This document shows, in pieces, positions 4,907 to 37,204 of a stretch of 41,408 bases of DNA (positions are counted from its first letter, which is position 1; each line of letters begins with the position of its first letter). Location of the stretch: NCBI GenBank assembly GCA_900696515.1, contig CAADGK010000026.1:1-41408 (forward strand). Direction: 5' to 3'. The DNA is from an uncultured Nitrosospira sp. Its GTDB lineage: Bacteria > Nitrospirota > Nitrospiria > Nitrospirales > Nitrospiraceae. The translations under genes were made by a program, and so were the position numbers. The notes under the pieces were generated by a model, which saw nothing but the letters and a program-made list of their open reading frames with translations, had not been told where the DNA came from and did not search any database.

Positions 4907-6265
4907 ATGGCTGAACAGTTACTCGAAGGCCCACGCCCGGTGTTGAGCGACGATCGTGCGATTCGCTGGCAGGGGTTTGCGCTCGTGCTGGTGGTCTTCG
5001 GCGGACTCATTCCCTGGGCCTCGCTGGCCCCCCTCACGAGTGCCGCCTTAGCTCCAGGCGTCATTACCGTCGAGCACTATCGAAAAACGGTACAGCATCT
5101 CGAGGGAGGGATCATTCGAACGCTCGATGTGCATGACGGGGACTTCGTGCAACAAGGCCAAGTGCTCGCAACACTGGATGATACCCAATCCCGTGCCCAG
5201 CTTGAAGTCTTCCGGGGGCAGCTCTATATGCGGATTGCCCAGGAAGCTAGGCTGGCTGCGCAGCGGGATGACCTGCCGTCCGTACACTACCCCCAGGAAT
5301 TGCTTGAACACCGCGACGATGTGCGCGTTCAGGAAGCAATCCGGCTGCAGAATCAAACATTCCGGGTGCGTCAGGCGGCGAACGACGGTGAGACGGCCGT
5401 CTATCGCCGACAGATCGAGCGATTGCGAGCCAAAGTAGAAGGGCTCCGGGCACAGAAGCGCACCAAAGATCACCTCGTGGACTCCTACCGCGAGGCCCTG
5501 ACCGACTTCGAGAGCCTGCTGCATGAGGGATACACCGAAAAGCAAAAGGTCGAGGAACTGGACCGCGCGCTGGCCCAGAGTGAGGGGCACCGTGTGGAGT
5601 TGATGTCCGACATTGCGGGGAGCGAGTTGCAAATAGCCGAGATCGAGTTGAAGGTTTTGCAGCTGAAGAAGGATCTCCAACGAGAAGTGGCCAAGGAATT
5701 AAGCGAAATCCAGGCCGAATCATTCGGGCTTCGGGAGAAAGTGCAGGTCCTCGACAGTACGGTGAACCGAACCGTCATCAAGGCTCCGGTCGCCGGAATG
5801 GTACTGGGACTAGCCGTGCATACCATCGGAGCCGTCATTCCCCCGGGCGGCCACCTGCTTGACATCGTGCCCAAGGATCACAAACTGCTCATTGAAGCTC
5901 AAGTTTCGCCCATCGACATCGATCGAGTGAAGATAGGGCAGCTGGCGGAGGTCCGGTTCGGTGCATTCAATACCCGCGATGTGCCCACGATCATGGGAAC
6001 ATTGATCAGCCTCTCGGCAGACCGGATGGCCTCGGACAATGCCAGCGCCAAGAATTCCAAGGAGTCCAGCGGAGACAACGCCGCCTACTATCTGGTGCGT
6101 GTGGCCGTCTCACCCGAGGGGCTGGAAGCCTTGAGCGCCGCGAACCTCGAACTGGTGCCGGGCATGCCTGCCGAGGTACTCATCAATACGGGAGAACAAA
6201 CCCTGGTGCAGTATTTGGCAAAACCCATGACGGATACCTTCAAACGTGCTTTCATCGAGGATTGA
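4907..6265 (+). CDS. HlyD-family membrane fusion protein of the type I secretion system
   Basis: A 452-residue periplasmic adaptor linking the inner-membrane ABC exporter to the outer-membrane channel. One N-terminal membrane helix (about residues 20-45) is followed by a biotinyl-lipoyl-like half-motif around VQHLEGGIIRTLDVHDGD, a long coiled-coil hairpin (about 110-270), the second lipoyl half with APVAGMVLGL, and a beta-barrel ending in EVLINTGEQT. This order is that of the PrtE/HlyD adaptors. It begins 21 bp after the exporter gene and is followed 9-30 bp later by the TolC-type gene, which gives the usual three-gene export unit. The last residues, FKRAFIED, match the conserved C-terminus of the family. 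Confidence 0.93.
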   Translation: MAEQLLEGPRPVLSDDRAIRWQGFALVLVVFGGLIPWASLAPLTSAALAPGVITVEHYRKTVQHLEGGIIRTLDVHDGDFVQQGQVLATLDDTQSRAQLEVFRGQLYMRIAQEARLAAQRDDLPSVHYPQELLEHRDDVRVQEAIRLQNQTFRVRQAANDGETAVYRRQIERLRAKVEGLRAQKRTKDHLVDSYREALTDFESLLHEGYTEKQKVEELDRALAQSEGHRVELMSDIAGSELQIAEIELKVLQLKKDLQREVAKELSEIQAESFGLREKVQVLDSTVNRTVIKAPVAGMVLGLAVHTIGAVIPPGGHLLDIVPKDHKLLIEAQVSPIDIDRVKIGQLAEVRFGAFNTRDVPTIMGTLISLSADRMASDNASAKNSKESSGDNAAYYLVRVAVSPEGLEALSAANLELVPGMPAEVLINTGEQTLVQYLAKPMTDTFKRAFIED

Positions 6266-25845: not shown

Positions 25846-26277
25846 ATGTCCAAACATGCCAAGGAAATGGGGATTCTGAAAGAGCATTTGGGGAAACACC
25901 AGCTCAAATTTACGCGCCAGCGCGAGTTGATTCTCGACGCCTTTTTGAAACAAGAGCACATCACGGCCGAGGAAATGTATCACCAGCTAGCCCGCAGAGA
26001 TCCCCATCTCGGGCTTGCAACCATTTACCGGACCCTCAACCTGTTCTGTGAAGCCGGACTGGCTCAAGCCCGGCACTTTGGGACCCAGACTCAATATGAC
26101 AATGTGTCCCATAAGGGCCATCACGACCATCTCATCTGCACCGGCTGCGGCAAGATCGTGGAATTTGAAAACTGCGATATCGAACGGCTCCAAGAGGAGG
26201 TCGCGACCCAAAACGGTTTTACGATCACCACCCACCGGCTCGAACTCTACGGGCTCTGCTCCCGCTGCCGTCATTGA
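25846..26277 (+). CDS. fur: Fur-family transcriptional regulator
   Basis: A 143-residue metal-responsive repressor. The N-terminal winged helix has LKFTRQRELILDAFLKQ, HITAEEMYHQLARRDP and the recognition helix LATIYRTLNLFCEAGL. The dimerisation and metal-binding part has KGHHDHLICTGCGKIVEF with the regulatory-site ligands and the first Cys pair, and CSRCRH at the C-terminus with the second Cys pair of a structural zinc site. It is a Fur/PerR/Zur family member; iron is the likely metal because a ferric importer with a Fur-box-like promoter site follows 82 bp downstream and TonB/ExbBD lie close by, but zinc or manganese is not excluded. The -35 of the importer promoter overlaps the stop codon of this gene. 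Confidence 0.9.
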   Translation: MSKHAKEMGILKEHLGKHQLKFTRQRELILDAFLKQEHITAEEMYHQLARRDPHLGLATIYRTLNLFCEAGLAQARHFGTQTQYDNVSHKGHHDHLICTGCGKIVEFENCDIERLQEEVATQNGFTITTHRLELYGLCSRCRH

Positions 26278-26325
26278 CCCTCAGAAATGTTTCTGGTATT
26301 CTTTTTGATATAGCTTATCAATTTC
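26274..26325 (+). promoter_or_regulatory. Promoter and Fur-box-like site for the iron ABC importer
   Basis: TTGACC (26274-26279), a 17-bp spacer and TATTCT (26297-26302) form a sigma70-type promoter whose -35 overlaps the stop codon of fur. The expected start point falls inside GATATAGCTTATCAATTTC (26307-26325), which matches the 19-bp E. coli Fur consensus GATAATGATAATCATTATC at 13 positions and contains the perfect repeat TTGATA-N5-TATCAA. This is where a repressor would sit. Confidence 0.65.
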
Positions 26326-26359
26326 AAGTCGTACCGCCCCTATCGTAAAAAGGTCTGCC

Positions 26360-31945: not shown

Positions 31946-32971
31946 CTATGGGGCGCGCAACCGATCCCGGATCCCGGAAGACACCACCAGGTACCCTTTC
32001 ACATCGATGATGATGGCTTCAACACCCGGTAGCCGTTCTACCAACGCCATCCCTTCTTCAGGTCCCAGCACAAAAATACCTGTATCCAACCCGTCGGCCA
32101 TCGTACCGTCCTTGGCGATGACCGTCACGCTCTGACATCCTCGTGCCGGCTGCAACGTGTGTGGGTCTAAGATATGATGATACCGCACGCCATCCTGTTC
32201 GAAGTACCGTTCGTAGTCCCCGGCCGTTGAAATCGCTTCATCATGTAAATCGATGATGCCGATCAGCATTCCCTCCTCACGGGGATGTCTGATCCCGACG
32301 GGAAACCCGCTTCGTTCAGAAAGCACACCGAAGGCTTTCACGTCTCCGGATAAGGCGACTACTCCCCCTTCGGCACCTGCTCGTTTCATCACCTCGACCG
32401 CCCGATCGGCGGCATAGCCTTTTCCGACCCCACCGACATCAATGCGCATTCCCTTATGCGGCAAGTAAATCGTCCGTGCTGTCTTATCAATTTGAATGCT
32501 TGTCCAATCAACGAGCGATTTCAATCGTTCGAGGGTTGGCCCATCGGGAATCTGCTGTCGCCCGGTGACGCTCCACGCTTCGATCGCAGGTCCCAGAGCA
32601 ATATTGAACCCGCCATGAGTGAGTTGCGCCATTTCCAGAGATCGAACAACCAGCTCAAATGTCTCGCGACTGACTTGGACAGACCGGCGACCAGCTTCGG
32701 CATTCACCTGCGAGAGCTCACTGTCAGGACGCCAGGTGCTTAATAATTGTTCAAGACGCTTAATCTCGTCGAAGGCCACCTGGACGGCGCGATCACCTAT
32801 GTCTTTGTCGGAAGCCAGAGCTGTGACAGTGACGAGGGTTCCCATGTGCATCTGGGCACGTTTTGAAATAGTGGGTGGAGAAGATGGGCGTATTCCCGCA
32901 CAACCTTCCGGCATGATCAGGATAAGAACCATGATCACCAGATGGCTGATCGTGGACTGAGCGATCTTCAT
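31946..32971 (-). CDS. apbE: FAD:protein FMN transferase (ApbE), lipoprotein
   Basis: An enzyme of about 341 residues that attaches FMN covalently to a Thr or Ser of target proteins, using FAD and magnesium, on the periplasmic side. I start it at MKIAQSTISHLVIMVLILIM, which gives a signal peptide and a lipobox ending in GCAG; a longer frame reaches 33160, but it overlaps the previous gene by far and adds nothing recognisable. Family motifs are HMGTLVTVTALASD, WRPDSELSQVNAEAG, GGVGKGYAADRAVEVM, VALSGDVKAFG and the metal-binding HILDPHTLQPARG with DGLDTGIFVLG. It is preceded 13 bp upstream by a lipoprotein gene in the same direction. A candidate target, an FMN-binding protein with a TGAT motif, is in the divergent operon. 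Confidence 0.92.
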   Translation of the reverse strand: MKIAQSTISHLVIMVLILIMPEGCAGIRPSSPPTISKRAQMHMGTLVTVTALASDKDIGDRAVQVAFDEIKRLEQLLSTWRPDSELSQVNAEAGRRSVQVSRETFELVVRSLEMAQLTHGGFNIALGPAIEAWSVTGRQQIPDGPTLERLKSLVDWTSIQIDKTARTIYLPHKGMRIDVGGVGKGYAADRAVEVMKRAGAEGGVVALSGDVKAFGVLSERSGFPVGIRHPREEGMLIGIIDLHDEAISTAGDYERYFEQDGVRYHHILDPHTLQPARGCQSVTVIAKDGTMADGLDTGIFVLGPEEGMALVERLPGVEAIIIDVKGYLVVSSGIRDRLRAP

Positions 32972-32984
32972 TGTGCGATCCCCC

Positions 32985-33596
32985 TTACCACCAGTGCCGG
33001 CAAAAGTATCTCGGATACCGCGGGTACGGCATAACTTCATAGAGCCGTGCTTCGACCCGAGCCGGCAAGGGAAGCGTTTCAGCCATCGAGCTGCCCCTGA
33101 GCATCGGATACCGGCCATCGAGAAAGTCCCGTGCCTGGGTAGTCTCGGATTGGTCGGCAACCACAGAGACCACGATCATCCGTCCATAACGCGGCGAATC
33201 GATTTCGAATCTCCAAGTCCCCACATAGCTAATGGCCGTGGCGCCGACGGGAAAAGTCATCGATACATCCGCCATGGACCTGAAGGGTCCCCCAGCACTC
33301 TGTACCCGCGTCAATTGATACGTCCCAGACGGCAGGGCGGCAGTAAAATATCGATCGTGCGAGTCGATCTCGACTTGAAATCGCTTGTGCGACGTTTGAT
33401 TCTCCAACTCCAAAAATTGCACGGCTGGTGAATACCACCGAGATCGGTCACCGGCCAAGATAATGACAGCTCTCCCAACAACCAGGTTCTCCGTCACTTC
33501 ATTTGGATCGACCAATGGAGACAACTGGGTTACACAGCTCCACAAGCCTCCAACCGTAATTAACAGCCCTAGCCCCTGGATCACACCGAGTTTCAT
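32985..33596 (-). CDS. Hypothetical lipoprotein upstream of apbE
   Basis: A 203-residue protein starting MKLGVIQGLGLLITVGGLWS with a Cys at about residue 21 that could serve as a lipobox (GLWSC). I do not recognise the family with certainty. Segments such as FTAALPSGTYQLTRVQSAGG resemble the beta-sandwich of DUF2846/PEGA-type domains, where a strand and a GTY turn recur. The C-terminus is rich in Tyr, Arg and Trp (YPRYPRYFCRHWW). It is the first gene of a leftward pair with apbE (13 bp apart), driven by a promoter next to a Fur box, so it may help in flavin-protein assembly or anchor another component. Confidence 0.7.
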   Translation of the reverse strand: MKLGVIQGLGLLITVGGLWSCVTQLSPLVDPNEVTENLVVGRAVIILAGDRSRWYSPAVQFLELENQTSHKRFQVEIDSHDRYFTAALPSGTYQLTRVQSAGGPFRSMADVSMTFPVGATAISYVGTWRFEIDSPRYGRMIVVSVVADQSETTQARDFLDGRYPMLRGSSMAETLPLPARVEARLYEVMPYPRYPRYFCRHWW

Positions 33597-33652
33597 ATTT
33601 ACTCAAAAAGTATACGAAATTTCACAGGCTTCGGCATCCCTGTTTTCCGGAA

Positions 33653-33701
33653 ATTATATCTTGACAGCAAAGCGCATGTCAGGATATTAATAATCGTTCT
33701 C
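33653..33701. promoter_or_regulatory. Divergent promoters with a Fur box between the apbE pair and the porin operon
   Basis: Rightward: perfect -35 TTGACA (33661-33666) and, 18 bp on, -10 TATTAA (33685-33690). Leftward: -35 CTGACA (33682-33677) and, 18 bp on, a perfect -10 TATAAT (33658-33653). GATATTAATAATCGTTCTC (33683-33701) agrees with the 19-bp Fur consensus at 15 positions. It covers the rightward -10 and directly abuts the leftward -35, so a bound repressor should block both directions. Confidence 0.72.
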
Positions 33702-33731
33702 AATTTCATGACGAGAGATACGCTGAACACC

Positions 33732-33908
33732 ATGGCAATTGCCAAGACTTCTTCCCAGGAACCTTGCTCGCCCCTCGAAACCCGCTGTGAATGCGGACAG
33801 TTGATTGCCAAGGTGTGCGGGCAAGGCCTGGAGCTGAAGTGCAAGCGATGCAAGCGTATCGTCGTGATCCCCTTTTCTTCCATCGAAGGCTGGGGAACGG
33901 CAATCTAA
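33732..33908 (+). CDS. Small Com-like zinc-finger protein
   Basis: A protein of 58 residues (66 if the ATG at 33708 is used). RCECGQLIAKVCG followed by LELKCKRCKRIVVIPF has two Cys pairs, CxC and CxxC, like the zinc-binding Com family of Mu-like phages and similar small proteins. The transcript of the Fur-linked promoter is expected to start near 33697, which would leave the 33708 ATG almost without a leader, so I prefer 33732. It is the first gene of the rightward unit, 122 bp ahead of the porin. A regulatory or metal-sensing role is possible but unproven. Confidence 0.65.
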   Translation: MAIAKTSSQEPCSPLETRCECGQLIAKVCGQGLELKCKRCKRIVVIPFSSIEGWGTAI

Positions 33909-34030
33909 GAATTCTCTCAAACGGGAGGAATGACCGTCATGTAGTCGTGCTAGTTTTCGATGTACCTGAAGACCAGAGACCAGCGAGTCCCGAGTCAGTC
34001 TATAACCTTACTTAATCAGGGAGGATACCG

Positions 34031-35461
34031 ATGAAGATGCGGTTACTCCTCGGGGCTCTTTCGATTCTTGCGCTGTCGGTCACTCCGGTCTTCGCAGAAG
34101 AGAGTCTTGAGGAACGAGTGAAAAGACTCGAAGAAGCGTTACAGAAAGCACAGGAACGTGAATCGCGAGGGGTTCCTGTGGAAAGTTCGCAGCCTAAGCA
34201 ATACCCGGTGCCGACCGGGCCAATGACCGATATTAGGGTCGGACGTCAAGGAGAGGAAAAAACCTCTCTGGGATTCGGTTCCACAGGGTCAGGAAAATTG
34301 ATCTACGCAAAGCCATTCTTGAGCGCTCCGAAGGCCACGATCGGCGGTTATGCGGACGTGATGTATAACATCCTGTCTCGTCAAAATTTGGACAATCCGA
34401 GCCGCAATAGTTTCGGTCAGCAGCGATTGGTGCCGTTCATCTATGCCGATATCACCGATCGTGTCAAATTTGCAGCAGAAATTGAGATTGAACGTGGTGG
34501 AACCAATTCACCCCAAGGCGATGGTTCGATTCAGGTCGAGTTTGCTCAACTGGACTATCTGGTCGACGAGCGAATCAACATCCGAGGCGGCATCCTCCTC
34601 ATGCCGGTCGGTAAGTTTAACCTGCTCCATGATTCGCCGTTAAATGATCTGGTTGATCGGCCGATGGTATCGAGGCTCATCATTCCAAGCACCTGGTTCG
34701 AAGCCGGCGCCGGCATCTATGGAACCTTCTATCCAACTGCGCTGTCGAAGATCGATTACGAACTCTATGCGGTCAACGGGATGACCCAAACCGCTGGCGC
34801 GATCACGGACTTGGGTATCCGAAGTGCACGCGGAAGTGTGTCACGCGATCGCGATGACAGCAAAGCCATCGTCGGTCGTTTGGCCTTTAGTCCCATGTTA
34901 GGGATTGAAATCGCCGGATCCGGCTACCATGGGCAATATAAGCCCTCGACTGCGACGATCGGCTCAGGGAATATCGATATCTTCGCAGTAGATTGGACCT
35001 TACAACGTGGTCCATTCGAGCTGATCGGCGAAGCGGCATGGACCAGAATCAGCAACAACAACGCGACCGGTGTGGCAAACAACCCCATCGGTCCTGCCGG
35101 CATGTTCGGCTACTACGTCCAGGGAAACTATCACTTTATGCCGGAAATCCTGAAGAGGCTGGCACCCAGTCACTTCTCCGATGCCTCCACCTTCACGGCA
35201 ACGGTGCGCTGGGAGCAAATCGACACCGATACAGACAACCGTACGGTTGGCGGAGCAAACAGACTGGGCAATCGGCGAGAGCTTGATCGGTTGACGGTGG
35301 GTCTGAATTTCAGACCCGTCGAGGACATGGTCTTTAAAATCAACTGGCAGTATAACACCCAAAATGGAGGCGTAGGTCTCACACCGGCAGGAGACCTCGG
35401 TAATGCCAGTAGTCCGATGGATGGAGACGGGTTTCTGTTCCAAGCAGCGACCTACTTCTAA
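34031..35461 (+). CDS. Outer membrane porin with N-terminal coiled coil
   Basis: A 476-residue protein with a GGGAGG ribosome binding site and a signal peptide (MKMRLLLGALSILALSVTPVFA). The mature N-terminus is a coiled coil (ESLEERVKRLEEALQKAQERE) like that which anchors OprP/OprO and OprB-type porins to peptidoglycan. The rest is a repeating run of amphipathic strands such as RVKFAAEIEIERGG, INIRGGILLMPVGKFN and VFKINWQYN, and the C-terminus ends in ATYF, the Phe needed for insertion in the outer membrane. The first strand, IGGYADVMYNI, also fits a phosphate-selective porin-like or DcaP-like family. The solute is unknown. It is part of the rightward Fur-linked unit and is followed by a hairpin and a lipoprotein gene. 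Confidence 0.85.
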   Translation: MKMRLLLGALSILALSVTPVFAEESLEERVKRLEEALQKAQERESRGVPVESSQPKQYPVPTGPMTDIRVGRQGEEKTSLGFGSTGSGKLIYAKPFLSAPKATIGGYADVMYNILSRQNLDNPSRNSFGQQRLVPFIYADITDRVKFAAEIEIERGGTNSPQGDGSIQVEFAQLDYLVDERINIRGGILLMPVGKFNLLHDSPLNDLVDRPMVSRLIIPSTWFEAGAGIYGTFYPTALSKIDYELYAVNGMTQTAGAITDLGIRSARGSVSRDRDDSKAIVGRLAFSPMLGIEIAGSGYHGQYKPSTATIGSGNIDIFAVDWTLQRGPFELIGEAAWTRISNNNATGVANNPIGPAGMFGYYVQGNYHFMPEILKRLAPSHFSDASTFTATVRWEQIDTDTDNRTVGGANRLGNRRELDRLTVGLNFRPVEDMVFKINWQYNTQNGGVGLTPAGDLGNASSPMDGDGFLFQAATYF

Positions 35462-35509: not shown

Positions 35510-35986
35510 ATGACACAGTTTCTTGAGCGAATGAACGTGTACATTCTCCCGTTTCTTCTGGTTGGAAGTGTGGGAGGATGTGCTTTGATGACCAGCGGCA
35601 TGGAACAACGGGCTACCACCTGCAGCTATGACCAAGCCTGGGACGCGGCCATCGAAGTCGTCAAGGATCGGGCAGCCGATACGAATGATAAAGATGCTGG
35701 ATTGATCGTCACACACTGGCTCGAAATCCCGATGCCCGGCCGAAAGTACGGTGCCTTTCGCCGGGAAATCACTGACAGCAAAGATCGATCCCGCCTCACA
35801 CTCCGAGTGAAGCGAGCGGACGACGGGACAAGAATCTTTTTCATCGAAGAACGGCAGAGCTGGGTCATGCGGGGTGGGTCACGTCTCTTCGGCTGGGCTC
35901 CGACTGATCCATCCGTAGATGTCATGCGAGATATCCAAAATCGTCTTGATGCCAAGCTGCAGGAGTACGGATGTTCAGTTATCTAG
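35510..35986 (+). CDS. Hypothetical lipoprotein in the porin/FMN operon
   Basis: A 158-residue protein with a signal peptide and lipobox (VGSVGGCAL, Cys about 24). The N-terminal part could also start at the second Met (35531). The mature part, with TCSYDQAWDAAIEVVKDR, then LIVTHWLEIPMPG and LTLRVKRADDGTRIFFIEERQSW, resembles small lipoproteins with a BamC-like helix-strand domain, a similarity I judge as weak. It overlaps the FMN-binding protein gene by 16 bp, so the two are coupled. Confidence 0.75.
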   Translation: MTQFLERMNVYILPFLLVGSVGGCALMTSGMEQRATTCSYDQAWDAAIEVVKDRAADTNDKDAGLIVTHWLEIPMPGRKYGAFRREITDSKDRSRLTLRVKRADDGTRIFFIEERQSWVMRGGSRLFGWAPTDPSVDVMRDIQNRLDAKLQEYGCSVI

Positions 35987-36660
35987 GAAGACTTTTTGCC
36001 TGTTTCTTGATCGCGACAGTGCCTTGTCTCACCACTCCCCTATCGGCTGGAGCTGAAAAGGTATGGGATAACGATCTGAAGCGTTATCTCACCGAAGCTG
36101 AATTAAACCATGCCGAAGTCTTCATGTCGGAAGACGAGGCCGTGAAGATCGCCCTCCCGAAATCGCAACGTATTCGCAAGGACGTCATCCAGCTGACCCA
36201 GGAAAAGAAAGATCTGATTGAACAGCGGATCGGATGGAAATTTCCGGAAGAGACTTTCGAAGTCTATATCGGCGAAACAGGAGATAAGATCGACGGCTAC
36301 GCCATGGTCCACAATACCATCGGTAAGCACAAGCATATGACGTACATGGTCGGTGTCGATGCAACCGGGGCCTGCTCCGACGTCGAACTGTTGGTATTCC
36401 GTGAAGCCAGAGGAAGTGAAGTCGGACGTAAACGATTCAATGTGCAATACGAAGGCAAGACGGTCTTGGACCCGATCCGGATCAATAAGGACATCATCAA
36501 TATCACCGGTGCAACCATGTCCGTCCGATCGATCAGTGCCGGCGTGAAGCGCGTCCTTGTCTTGGTCGATGAGTTCTATTTGAAGCCTGCCGGGCTCGGA
36601 AGCGACACGCTGGCTGCCAAGAAGGACAAGGGATTCCTGCCGTCAATATTCGGCAATTAG
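35971..36660 (+). CDS. Periplasmic FMN-binding-domain protein with a flavinylation-like TGAT motif
   Basis: A 229-residue exported protein (signal peptide MFSYLGRLFACFLIATVPCL, cut near AGAEK). It has the FMN-binding domain of the NqrC/RnfG family: an N-terminal half with FEVYIGETGDKIDGYAMVHN, then YMVGVDATGACSDVELLVFREARGSEVG in two strands, and INITGATMSVRSI near residue 180. The SGAT/TGAT Thr (Thr182) is the residue to which ApbE links FMN in the family; the consensus Asp six residues before it is Ile176 here, although Asp174 is close. An ApbE gene lies in the divergent unit from the same Fur-linked intergenic region. So this is likely a flavin-carrying electron-transfer protein in the periplasm. 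It overlaps the preceding lipoprotein gene by 16 bp. Confidence 0.85.
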   Translation: MFSYLGRLFACFLIATVPCLTTPLSAGAEKVWDNDLKRYLTEAELNHAEVFMSEDEAVKIALPKSQRIRKDVIQLTQEKKDLIEQRIGWKFPEETFEVYIGETGDKIDGYAMVHNTIGKHKHMTYMVGVDATGACSDVELLVFREARGSEVGRKRFNVQYEGKTVLDPIRINKDIINITGATMSVRSISAGVKRVLVLVDEFYLKPAGLGSDTLAAKKDKGFLPSIFGN

Positions 36661-36685
36661 TCACAGCGGACCCAGCGTCCCGAAC

Positions 36686-37204
36686 ATGCGAAACTTCAAC
36701 CAGAAATTCAGGCTGCGTGACTCGGATCGCCATATTCGCTTGCTGTACACGTTGTTTTTATTGTTGATGTTCGTGGGATTCTGCTTCTCATTTTTTTGGG
36801 CGCACAGCATGACGGGATTATCCCCACAAGGCATTGCCGAACACTATCGCGGATCGGATGCCACGTTCGGCGAACCCATGTCGTTCCGAGAGCTGGCGGA
36901 AATCACCCATTTTCATCTTTTTACCATGCCGGTCGTCTTCATGATTTTGATCCACGTGATGTACCTGACCAACGCCAGCCATACCCTCAAAGCCGTCGTG
37001 ACCTGGGCCGGATTTGGTGGAGTCATGCTAGATCTGCTGTCGCCCTGGCTCATCAGCTATGTCTCTCCCATGTTCGTCGTCTCCATGCTCACGGGTGACA
37101 TGCTGATGACCCTCAGCTTTCTGGTCATGATGGTCGTTCCGCTGTATGAAATGTGGGTGCTCGGACAGCCGCTTATGGGAGGGAAACGTCCACAAGAATC
37201 GTAA
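36686..37204 (+). CDS. Four-helix membrane protein with histidines (possible heme-binding partner)
   Basis: A 172-residue inner-membrane protein with about four hydrophobic segments: residues 20-40, 78-96, 104-126 and 128-158. His75, His77 and His90 lie at the start and middle of the second helix (ITHFHLFTMP, FMILIHVMYL), and His40 ends the first helix, so b-type heme or metal binding is possible though unproven. No CxxCH motif exists. It is not a family I can name. It starts 25 bp after the FMN-binding gene and ends before a strong terminator, so it is the last gene of the rightward unit and may pass electrons from the quinone pool to the flavin protein. Confidence 0.72.
   Translation: MRNFNQKFRLRDSDRHIRLLYTLFLLLMFVGFCFSFFWAHSMTGLSPQGIAEHYRGSDATFGEPMSFRELAEITHFHLFTMPVVFMILIHVMYLTNASHTLKAVVTWAGFGGVMLDLLSPWLISYVSPMFVVSMLTGDMLMTLSFLVMMVVPLYEMWVLGQPLMGGKRPQES

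Follow-up and report, generated by a model that had tools for sequence, protein, structure and literature searches.

A conserved Fur-like operator, a Com-like gene and a porin leader element in the iron-uptake island of Nitrospiraceae: a proposed two-step control of a porin

Introduction

The classical Fur box is a 19-bp word of overlapping 7-1-7 sites that lies over the −10 region or start of iron-uptake genes; its consensus, GATAATGATAATCATTATC, was used for scoring in this study. In the FsrA/FbpB system of Bacillus subtilis, a Fur-repressed small protein acts after transcription. The locus described here resembles that system in that a small protein under Fur control is proposed to act on mRNA; unlike FsrA/FbpB, its cis RNA site adjoins the gene, and no sequence relation is claimed. 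ApbE and covalent-flavin proteins have been linked to iron uptake and Fur (PMC8238504).

In phage Mu, the com/mom pair is controlled at an RNA hairpin. The published description of the Com target (PMC6483171) gives it as CC(N)2-3GAG, with a six-base loop closed by C-G and with the GA of the loop protected by the protein. The Mu sequence record shows this site (CCTGCGAGCATCCC) adjoining the mom start. The present locus shares with com/mom a small gene for a Cys4 zinc ribbon that precedes its presumed target on one transcript, a hairpin loop C-NNN-GA closed by C-G near the target's start (Mu: CCUGCGAG), and an inhibitory structure, here predicted, over that start. Unlike com/mom, it is chromosomal, conserved across a bacterial family and located downstream of a Fur box within an iron island; its genes do not overlap, the target is a porin rather than a DNA-modification enzyme, and binding and activation are here proposed. 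Searches of open-licence papers returned no description of a Fur box in Nitrospira, of a link between Fur and Com, or of a porin under Com control.

Results

The window analysed is a stretch of 41,408 nucleotides, contig C26 of a 4.59-Mb genome, whose source is, to judge from amoA/amoB and the named relatives, probably a comammox Nitrospira. Pfam names in the window include Fur, an ABC transporter with an extracellular binding protein, ExbB, ExbD, TonB, ApbE, a Porin_O_P porin, an FMN-binding protein, an HD-domain protein and AMO subunits. With the ABC transporter and its binding protein read as a putative fbpABC, the window carries an iron-uptake island of fur, fbpABC, exbBD, tonB, ApbE, porin and FMN-binding protein (Table 1). 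This island shares with the Fur-controlled ApbE/flavinylation clusters (PepSY-like, Shewanella, Caulobacter) the tie of ApbE and flavin proteins to iron and Fur (PMC8238504); compared with those clusters, the flavin protein here adjoins the porin, FbpABC and TonB/ExbBD, and none of the island proteins examined was identified as PepSY.

Table 1. Positions of the features discussed, in window coordinates
Feature	Position	Strand	Remarks
Fur-family regulator of the island	25846..26277	+	
Second conserved Fur-like site	26307..26326	+	between fur and fbpA; 14/19 (26307-26325)
Divergent pair	31946..33596	-	ApbE (31946-32971), 203-aa protein (32985-33596)
Conserved-position leftward −10	33609..33614	-	TATACT in the window and TATAAT in the majority of relatives; the 203-aa protein's ATG follows after 12 nt
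Leftward promoter of the initial annotation, CTGACA-N18-TATAAT	33653..33682	-	present (11/12), not conserved
Rightward promoter, TTGACA-N18-TATTAA	33661..33690	+	TTGACA 33661-33666; −10 within the operator
Fur operator (predicted)	33683..33708	+	GATATTAATAATCGTTCTC (33683-33701) plus conserved AATTTCA
58-aa Com-like Cys4 zinc-ribbon protein	33732..33908	+	first gene behind the box; PHROGs, hhalign
Leader element, GACCAGAGACC-NNN-GAGTCCCGAGTC	33971..33996	+	hairpin, Com-type loop C-NNN-GA, C-G closed
5′ arm of predicted inhibitory stem	33985..33994	+	GAGTCCCGAG
Porin Shine-Dalgarno (GGAGG) and ATG	34020..34033	+	enclosed by the predicted stem
Porin (Porin_O_P), proposed switch target	34031..35461	+	Pfam
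3′ arm of predicted inhibitory stem	34049..34058	+	porin codons 7-10, CTCGGGGCTC; synonymous sites frozen
Rest of rightward unit	35510..37204	+	lipoprotein-like 158 aa, FMN-binding protein (35971-36660), 172-aa conserved protein

A scan of the whole window against the Fur consensus returned GATATTAATAATCGTTCTC as the best 19-mer, with the 15/19 match that the initial annotation had reported. Sites of at least 15/19 are expected by chance at a mean of 0.05 per window (first-order Markov background), and 7 of 4000 intergenic-like 135-mers attained that score. In the 4.59-Mb genome, GATATTAATAATCGTTCTC has a single exact copy and one further place at up to three mismatches. The interval first given for the site (33653-33701) was correct as far as it went, but the conserved operator is larger and takes the form CTTGACA-N16-GATATTAATAATCGTTCTC-AATTTCA: each column of AATTTCA, which lies outside the search word, was kept in 86-103 of 103 instances, and TTGACA stood exactly 16 nt 5′ of the box in 87 of them. 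Conservation within GATATTAATAATCGTTCTC is biased by the search, and the flanks AATTTCA and TTGACA, free of such bias, are about as conserved. The operator can be written as a 25-26 bp array of four hexamers, GATATT-AATAAT-C-GTTCTC-AATTTC (6-6-1-6-6), which would have room for more than one dimer. Like the classical Fur box, it lies over the −10/start of an iron-uptake unit, in a conserved island; compared with that box, it is near-invariant genus-wide, non-consensus letters included, it is extended, and there is usually one such word per genome.

We then examined the operator among relatives. At up to two mismatches, GATATTAATAATCGTTCTC occurs in 51 of 79 genomes of the genus Nitrospira, nearly always exact and single; a sample of the phylum gave it in 110 of 395 genomes. 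Among 119 distinct box instances, 103 had, by tblastn, a small Cys4 ORF on the same strand no more than 300 bp away; a stricter regular expression detected it in 43. The box was also present at all loci chosen independently of the word, whether by the 203-aa protein (30/30) or by the small Cys4 protein (30/30). Box, small gene and island neighbours kept their order in 18 of 20 relative stretches, the exceptions being L125, which lacks the small gene, and L126, which is unrelated. In two groups of loci, the box lies further downstream, with TTGACA 30-31 nt (L026, L027, L031) or 37-38 nt (L138-L140) from it, so the box is not retained merely as a −10.

The word is also found at other iron genes. 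Family f3 has it upstream of fur (L125, L144), and in L147 it runs across the start of a binding-protein (fbpA-like) gene. L135 carries two words, one at the start of a Fur-family gene (17/19 to the Fur consensus) and one at that of a binding-protein (fbpA-like) gene (18/19). A related site precedes fbpA in family f1, and a weak one lies on C51. The recurrence of the same word before fur and fbpA in sister families supports Fur as the binder. The second conserved site of the window lies just downstream of TTGACC-N17-TATTCT, and TTATCAATTTCA, its 3′ portion, is similar to TTCTCAATTTCA in the main site; most relatives examined keep this second site as GAGACGGCTTATCAATTTCAA-like words, and it has no clear trace in L120, L125, L143, L144, L149 and L150. 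With conservation, position and neighbouring genes considered, we are highly confident that GATATTAATAATCGTTCTC marks a Fur operator controlling transcription.

A genome scan was built from the sites, as the initial annotation had advised. The half-word pattern from both sites found 18 places against 3 with a reversed control; the best two were the two window sites and one other lay before a second exbBD. The remaining matches fell mostly within ORFs. A broad Fur regulon was also sought in the same genome by a relaxed consensus scan and was rejected, as its nine places (two in the control) were mostly intra-ORF; the sole plausible one was the C51 site before exbBD. That site (L130, G000:C51, 3-21) is a 15/19 Fur-like word located 26 bp before the second exbB/exbD pair. 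Word matches in L146 and L204-L207 lie inside ORFs and were taken as chance. The genome has two Fur-family genes, that of the island and one on C113.

The initial annotation had described two divergent promoters at the site and proposed that one repressor dimer switches both. On the rightward side, its TTGACA-N18-TATTAA pair is present with the −10 inside the operator, and a promoter scan pairs the same −35 with GATATT at N16 (10/12); two promoter-like pairs were found against 0.4 expected. The leftward CTGACA-N18-TATAAT does adjoin the box in this genome, but its two hexamers are both retained at ≥4/6 in only 2 of 103 instances. The −10 (33653-33658) keeps its place at ≥5/6 in 8 of 103, and relatives mostly have CCGATC, CTGATC or TCAATC as the abutting −35. 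A perfect leftward TATAAT stands further from the box in 63 of 103 instances, mostly 69-82 bp away, with an ATG at most 45 nt from it in 59 of the 63. Because of this distance, plain occlusion of the leftward −10 by box-bound Fur is unlikely. Direct repression of both divergent promoters by one dimer at GATATTAATAATCGTTCTC is accordingly improbable, since the leftward half of the proposal lacks support while the rightward half is supported; the divergent pair may respond to iron by another arrangement. We do not claim helical phasing of the leftward −10 (69, 78-82 bp), as relatedness explains the spacing equally. TATAAT-N6-ATG is frequent on the ApbE side of relatives, which suggests a leaderless mRNA there. 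As for other variants, the upstream region of L025 has a tandem partial copy of the box, and L138-L140 have a GATATTA-type −10 separate from the box downstream.

Neither the 58-aa ORF that begins the rightward unit nor the RNA element in the porin leader had been mentioned in the initial annotation. The small protein has the Com-family Cys4 zinc-ribbon pattern RC..C-(n)-KCxRCKR. Its core, RCECGQLIAK-ELKCKRCKR, is kept in 94 distinct sequences (L153 is broken there), and the four Cys are invariant in the family alignment. PHROGs assigns all 36 aligned members to Com/translational-regulator families (best E 1.2e-4), and hhalign of the family against Mu Com gave 89.9% (E 1.7e-6). The window's protein has no match among the Pfam and NCBIfam models, and Pfam Com (PF10122) is reached weakly by 3 of 36 relatives (best E 0.015); for this reason we call the protein Com-like rather than a family member. 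Structure prediction gives it three strands (mean pLDDT 73.9); a PDB fold search with it found nothing at E ≤ 0.001, and tblastn against phages gave E of about 7-9 at best, with no Com. Com-like paralogues without box or element exist; those at L134 (7531-7710), L166 (5985-6197) and L167 (5901-6344) adjoin HD-GYP-type genes in genomes lacking both.

The leader element lies between the Com-like ORF and the porin, where 122 nt separate the ORF stop from the porin ATG. In a search that allowed two mismatches, 84 of 91 element contexts matched the search word exactly and carried 22 different loop triplets. Positions outside the triplet were kept in at least 88 of 91, except the second (A in 70, G in 21), and the variable triplet falls where the published CC(N)2-3GAG (PMC6483171) permits any base. 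The isolated element folds as GAC-[CNNNGA]-GUC with an outer GAC/GUC stem (−4.3 kcal/mol), that is, as a CC(N)2-3GAG hairpin with a six-nucleotide, C-G-closed loop near the start of the presumed target. Covariation in the hairpin is slight (a double change at one pair; scores attained by 68/500 and by 313/500 shuffles) because the element hardly varies. Leader variants before second porins in L111 and L115 have an inner G-C pair in place of A-U. Rfam gave no match to the leader at gathering score.

Element, box and Com-like gene go together. The element (≤1 mismatch) is present in 51 of 51 box genomes versus 1 of 28 genomes without the box (G007); it is exact in 50 genomes and has one mismatch in G020 and G007. 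At E < 1e-15, the Com-like gene is found in the same 51 box genomes and in G003; in G007, the element precedes a porin without a Com-like match. In G018, genes have been inserted and the box, the Com-like gene and the porin 5′ end are lost together. The insertion (L155, 4600-9870) looks foreign. The 80 loci from named genomes, which overlap the 79-genome set and were picked by the Com-like protein itself, had the box in 80, the element in 77 and leader-porin pairing of at least 9/10 in 76. A three-mismatch variant of the element at G002:C17:57839, G039:C45:32901 and G040:C1:55089, about 5.5 kb from a weak Com-like match, is possibly a second Com-like target.

The 3′ half of the element is antisense to porin codons 7-10. 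With G-U pairs allowed, the leader sequence GAGUCCCGAG is complementary to these codons at 10/10 positions in 82 of 89 loci and at 9/10 in six more, a count that leaves out loci without a readable porin start; the 0.5% chance calculated for a 10/10 antisense run is an upper bound, as the drawn pool included the site itself. Among 79 conserved four- or sixfold degenerate columns, codon choice is most restricted at codons 8, 9 and 7, which use GGG (98.8%), GCT (97.4%) and CTC (95.1%), respectively, against 16.8, 11.4 and 24.9% elsewhere in the same porin genes. Synonymous freedom returns at Leu10, whose third base lies outside the stem. The freeze of these three codons, and its end where the pairing ends, place the constraint on codons 7-9 at the nucleotide level.

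Fold prediction gave the stem a mean probability of 0.74, which fell to 0.15 when codons 7-9 were replaced by random synonyms. The minimum-energy fold included the stem at 69 of 89 loci (complete in 51) and lacked it at 20. The 152-nt leader of the window as a whole is no more stable than its shuffles (z −0.27; 71/200). Without protein, the Com-type hairpin has a mean predicted probability of 0.006 across the leader loci; hairpin and stem share ten bases, so the two folds are mutually exclusive. In L140 of family f2, both arms are changed (GAGTCCCCAT with ATGGGGGCTC) and still pair at 10/10 in the same register; among other f2 loci, L142 has 8 pairs, L138 has 7, and L137 has only 4 contiguous ones. 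The f3 locus L143 has a partial GAGTCCCG in its porin leader without a Com-like gene beside the porin. In the same leader (5414-5480), GAGTCCCGCG can part-pair with GTCGGGAC of the porin start. The pairing of leader and codons 7-10 in the RNA is very probably real.

Discussion

The comparisons above establish, as far as sequence can, that the operator is conserved, that the small protein is homologous to Com, that the porin leader carries the element, that porin codons 7-9 are frozen, and that operator, Com-like gene and element are coupled. We propose that Fur controls the com-like/porin/FMN-binding transcription unit with GATATTAATAATCGTTCTC as its operator. Under iron-replete conditions Fur, probably as more than one dimer on the 6-6-1-6-6 array, would cover the rightward −10 and start. 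With iron scarce, the rightward mRNA would be made and its first gene, the Com-like zinc ribbon, translated. By default, the porin start on this mRNA would be enclosed by the stem between leader GAGUCCCGAG and codons 7-10. The same ten leader bases also belong to the Com-type hairpin, GAC-[C-NNN-GA]-GUC with its outer stem, and the Com-like protein, by binding the hairpin loop, would open the start of the porin in the way that Mu Com opens mom. That the Com-like protein acts on the porin leader is likely, and that it does so as an activator is moderately probable. The whole model, in which Fur derepression makes the mRNA and the Com-like protein then opens porin translation, is on balance the reading we favour; within it, the binding of Fur to the operator and of the Com-like protein to the RNA is inferred, as is the choice of activation over repression.

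One competing account is that of a plain Fur box that represses rightward only, with the Com-like ORF doing some other job and the leader stem tuning basal translation or mRNA stability. The Fur box evidence fits it too, the predicted default stem encloses the porin start, and Com-like paralogues do occur without the element; yet the invariance of the 5′ half of the element, GACCAGAGACC, the agreement of its loop with the published Com motif and the 51/51 versus 1/28 coupling of box and element would go unexplained, and we hold it unlikely. That the box is bound by another Fur-family protein, such as the PerR- or Zur-like candidate on C113, is hinted at by the second Fur-family gene in the genome and by a similar word before a Fur-family gene in L145, but is made very improbable by the iron-uptake neighbours, by the word preceding the island's own fur in f3, and by the 17-18/19 Fur-consensus scores of the intermediate words in other families.

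The same sequence facts are compatible with the Com-like protein as a repressor of the porin, in a negative loop limiting porin under iron starvation, and binding near a start site can block. Activation is nevertheless likelier because the hairpin and the inhibitory stem share bases: the default fold already encloses the start, and binding to the shared ten bases should open it. Mu Com activates (PMC6483171), and we consider repression improbable.

If the proposed Fur and Com-type control is right, porin output would need both low iron and a zinc-loaded Com-like protein, so that Fur control and zinc-dependent translation control would be joined in one transcript. Com-like proteins would gain a cellular role with an identified RNA target, the leader would be a compact, natural and testable protein-triggered RNA switch, and the lineage-specific Fur operator could be used for mapping the Nitrospira iron regulon. 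Chances are about even that a phage-type Com/mom switch became, or shares a source with, a core chromosomal iron regulator of Nitrospiraceae, in which Fur gates transcription and a zinc protein gates porin translation. In that case, the control of a phage DNA-modification operon would run iron physiology in globally important nitrifiers, comammox included.
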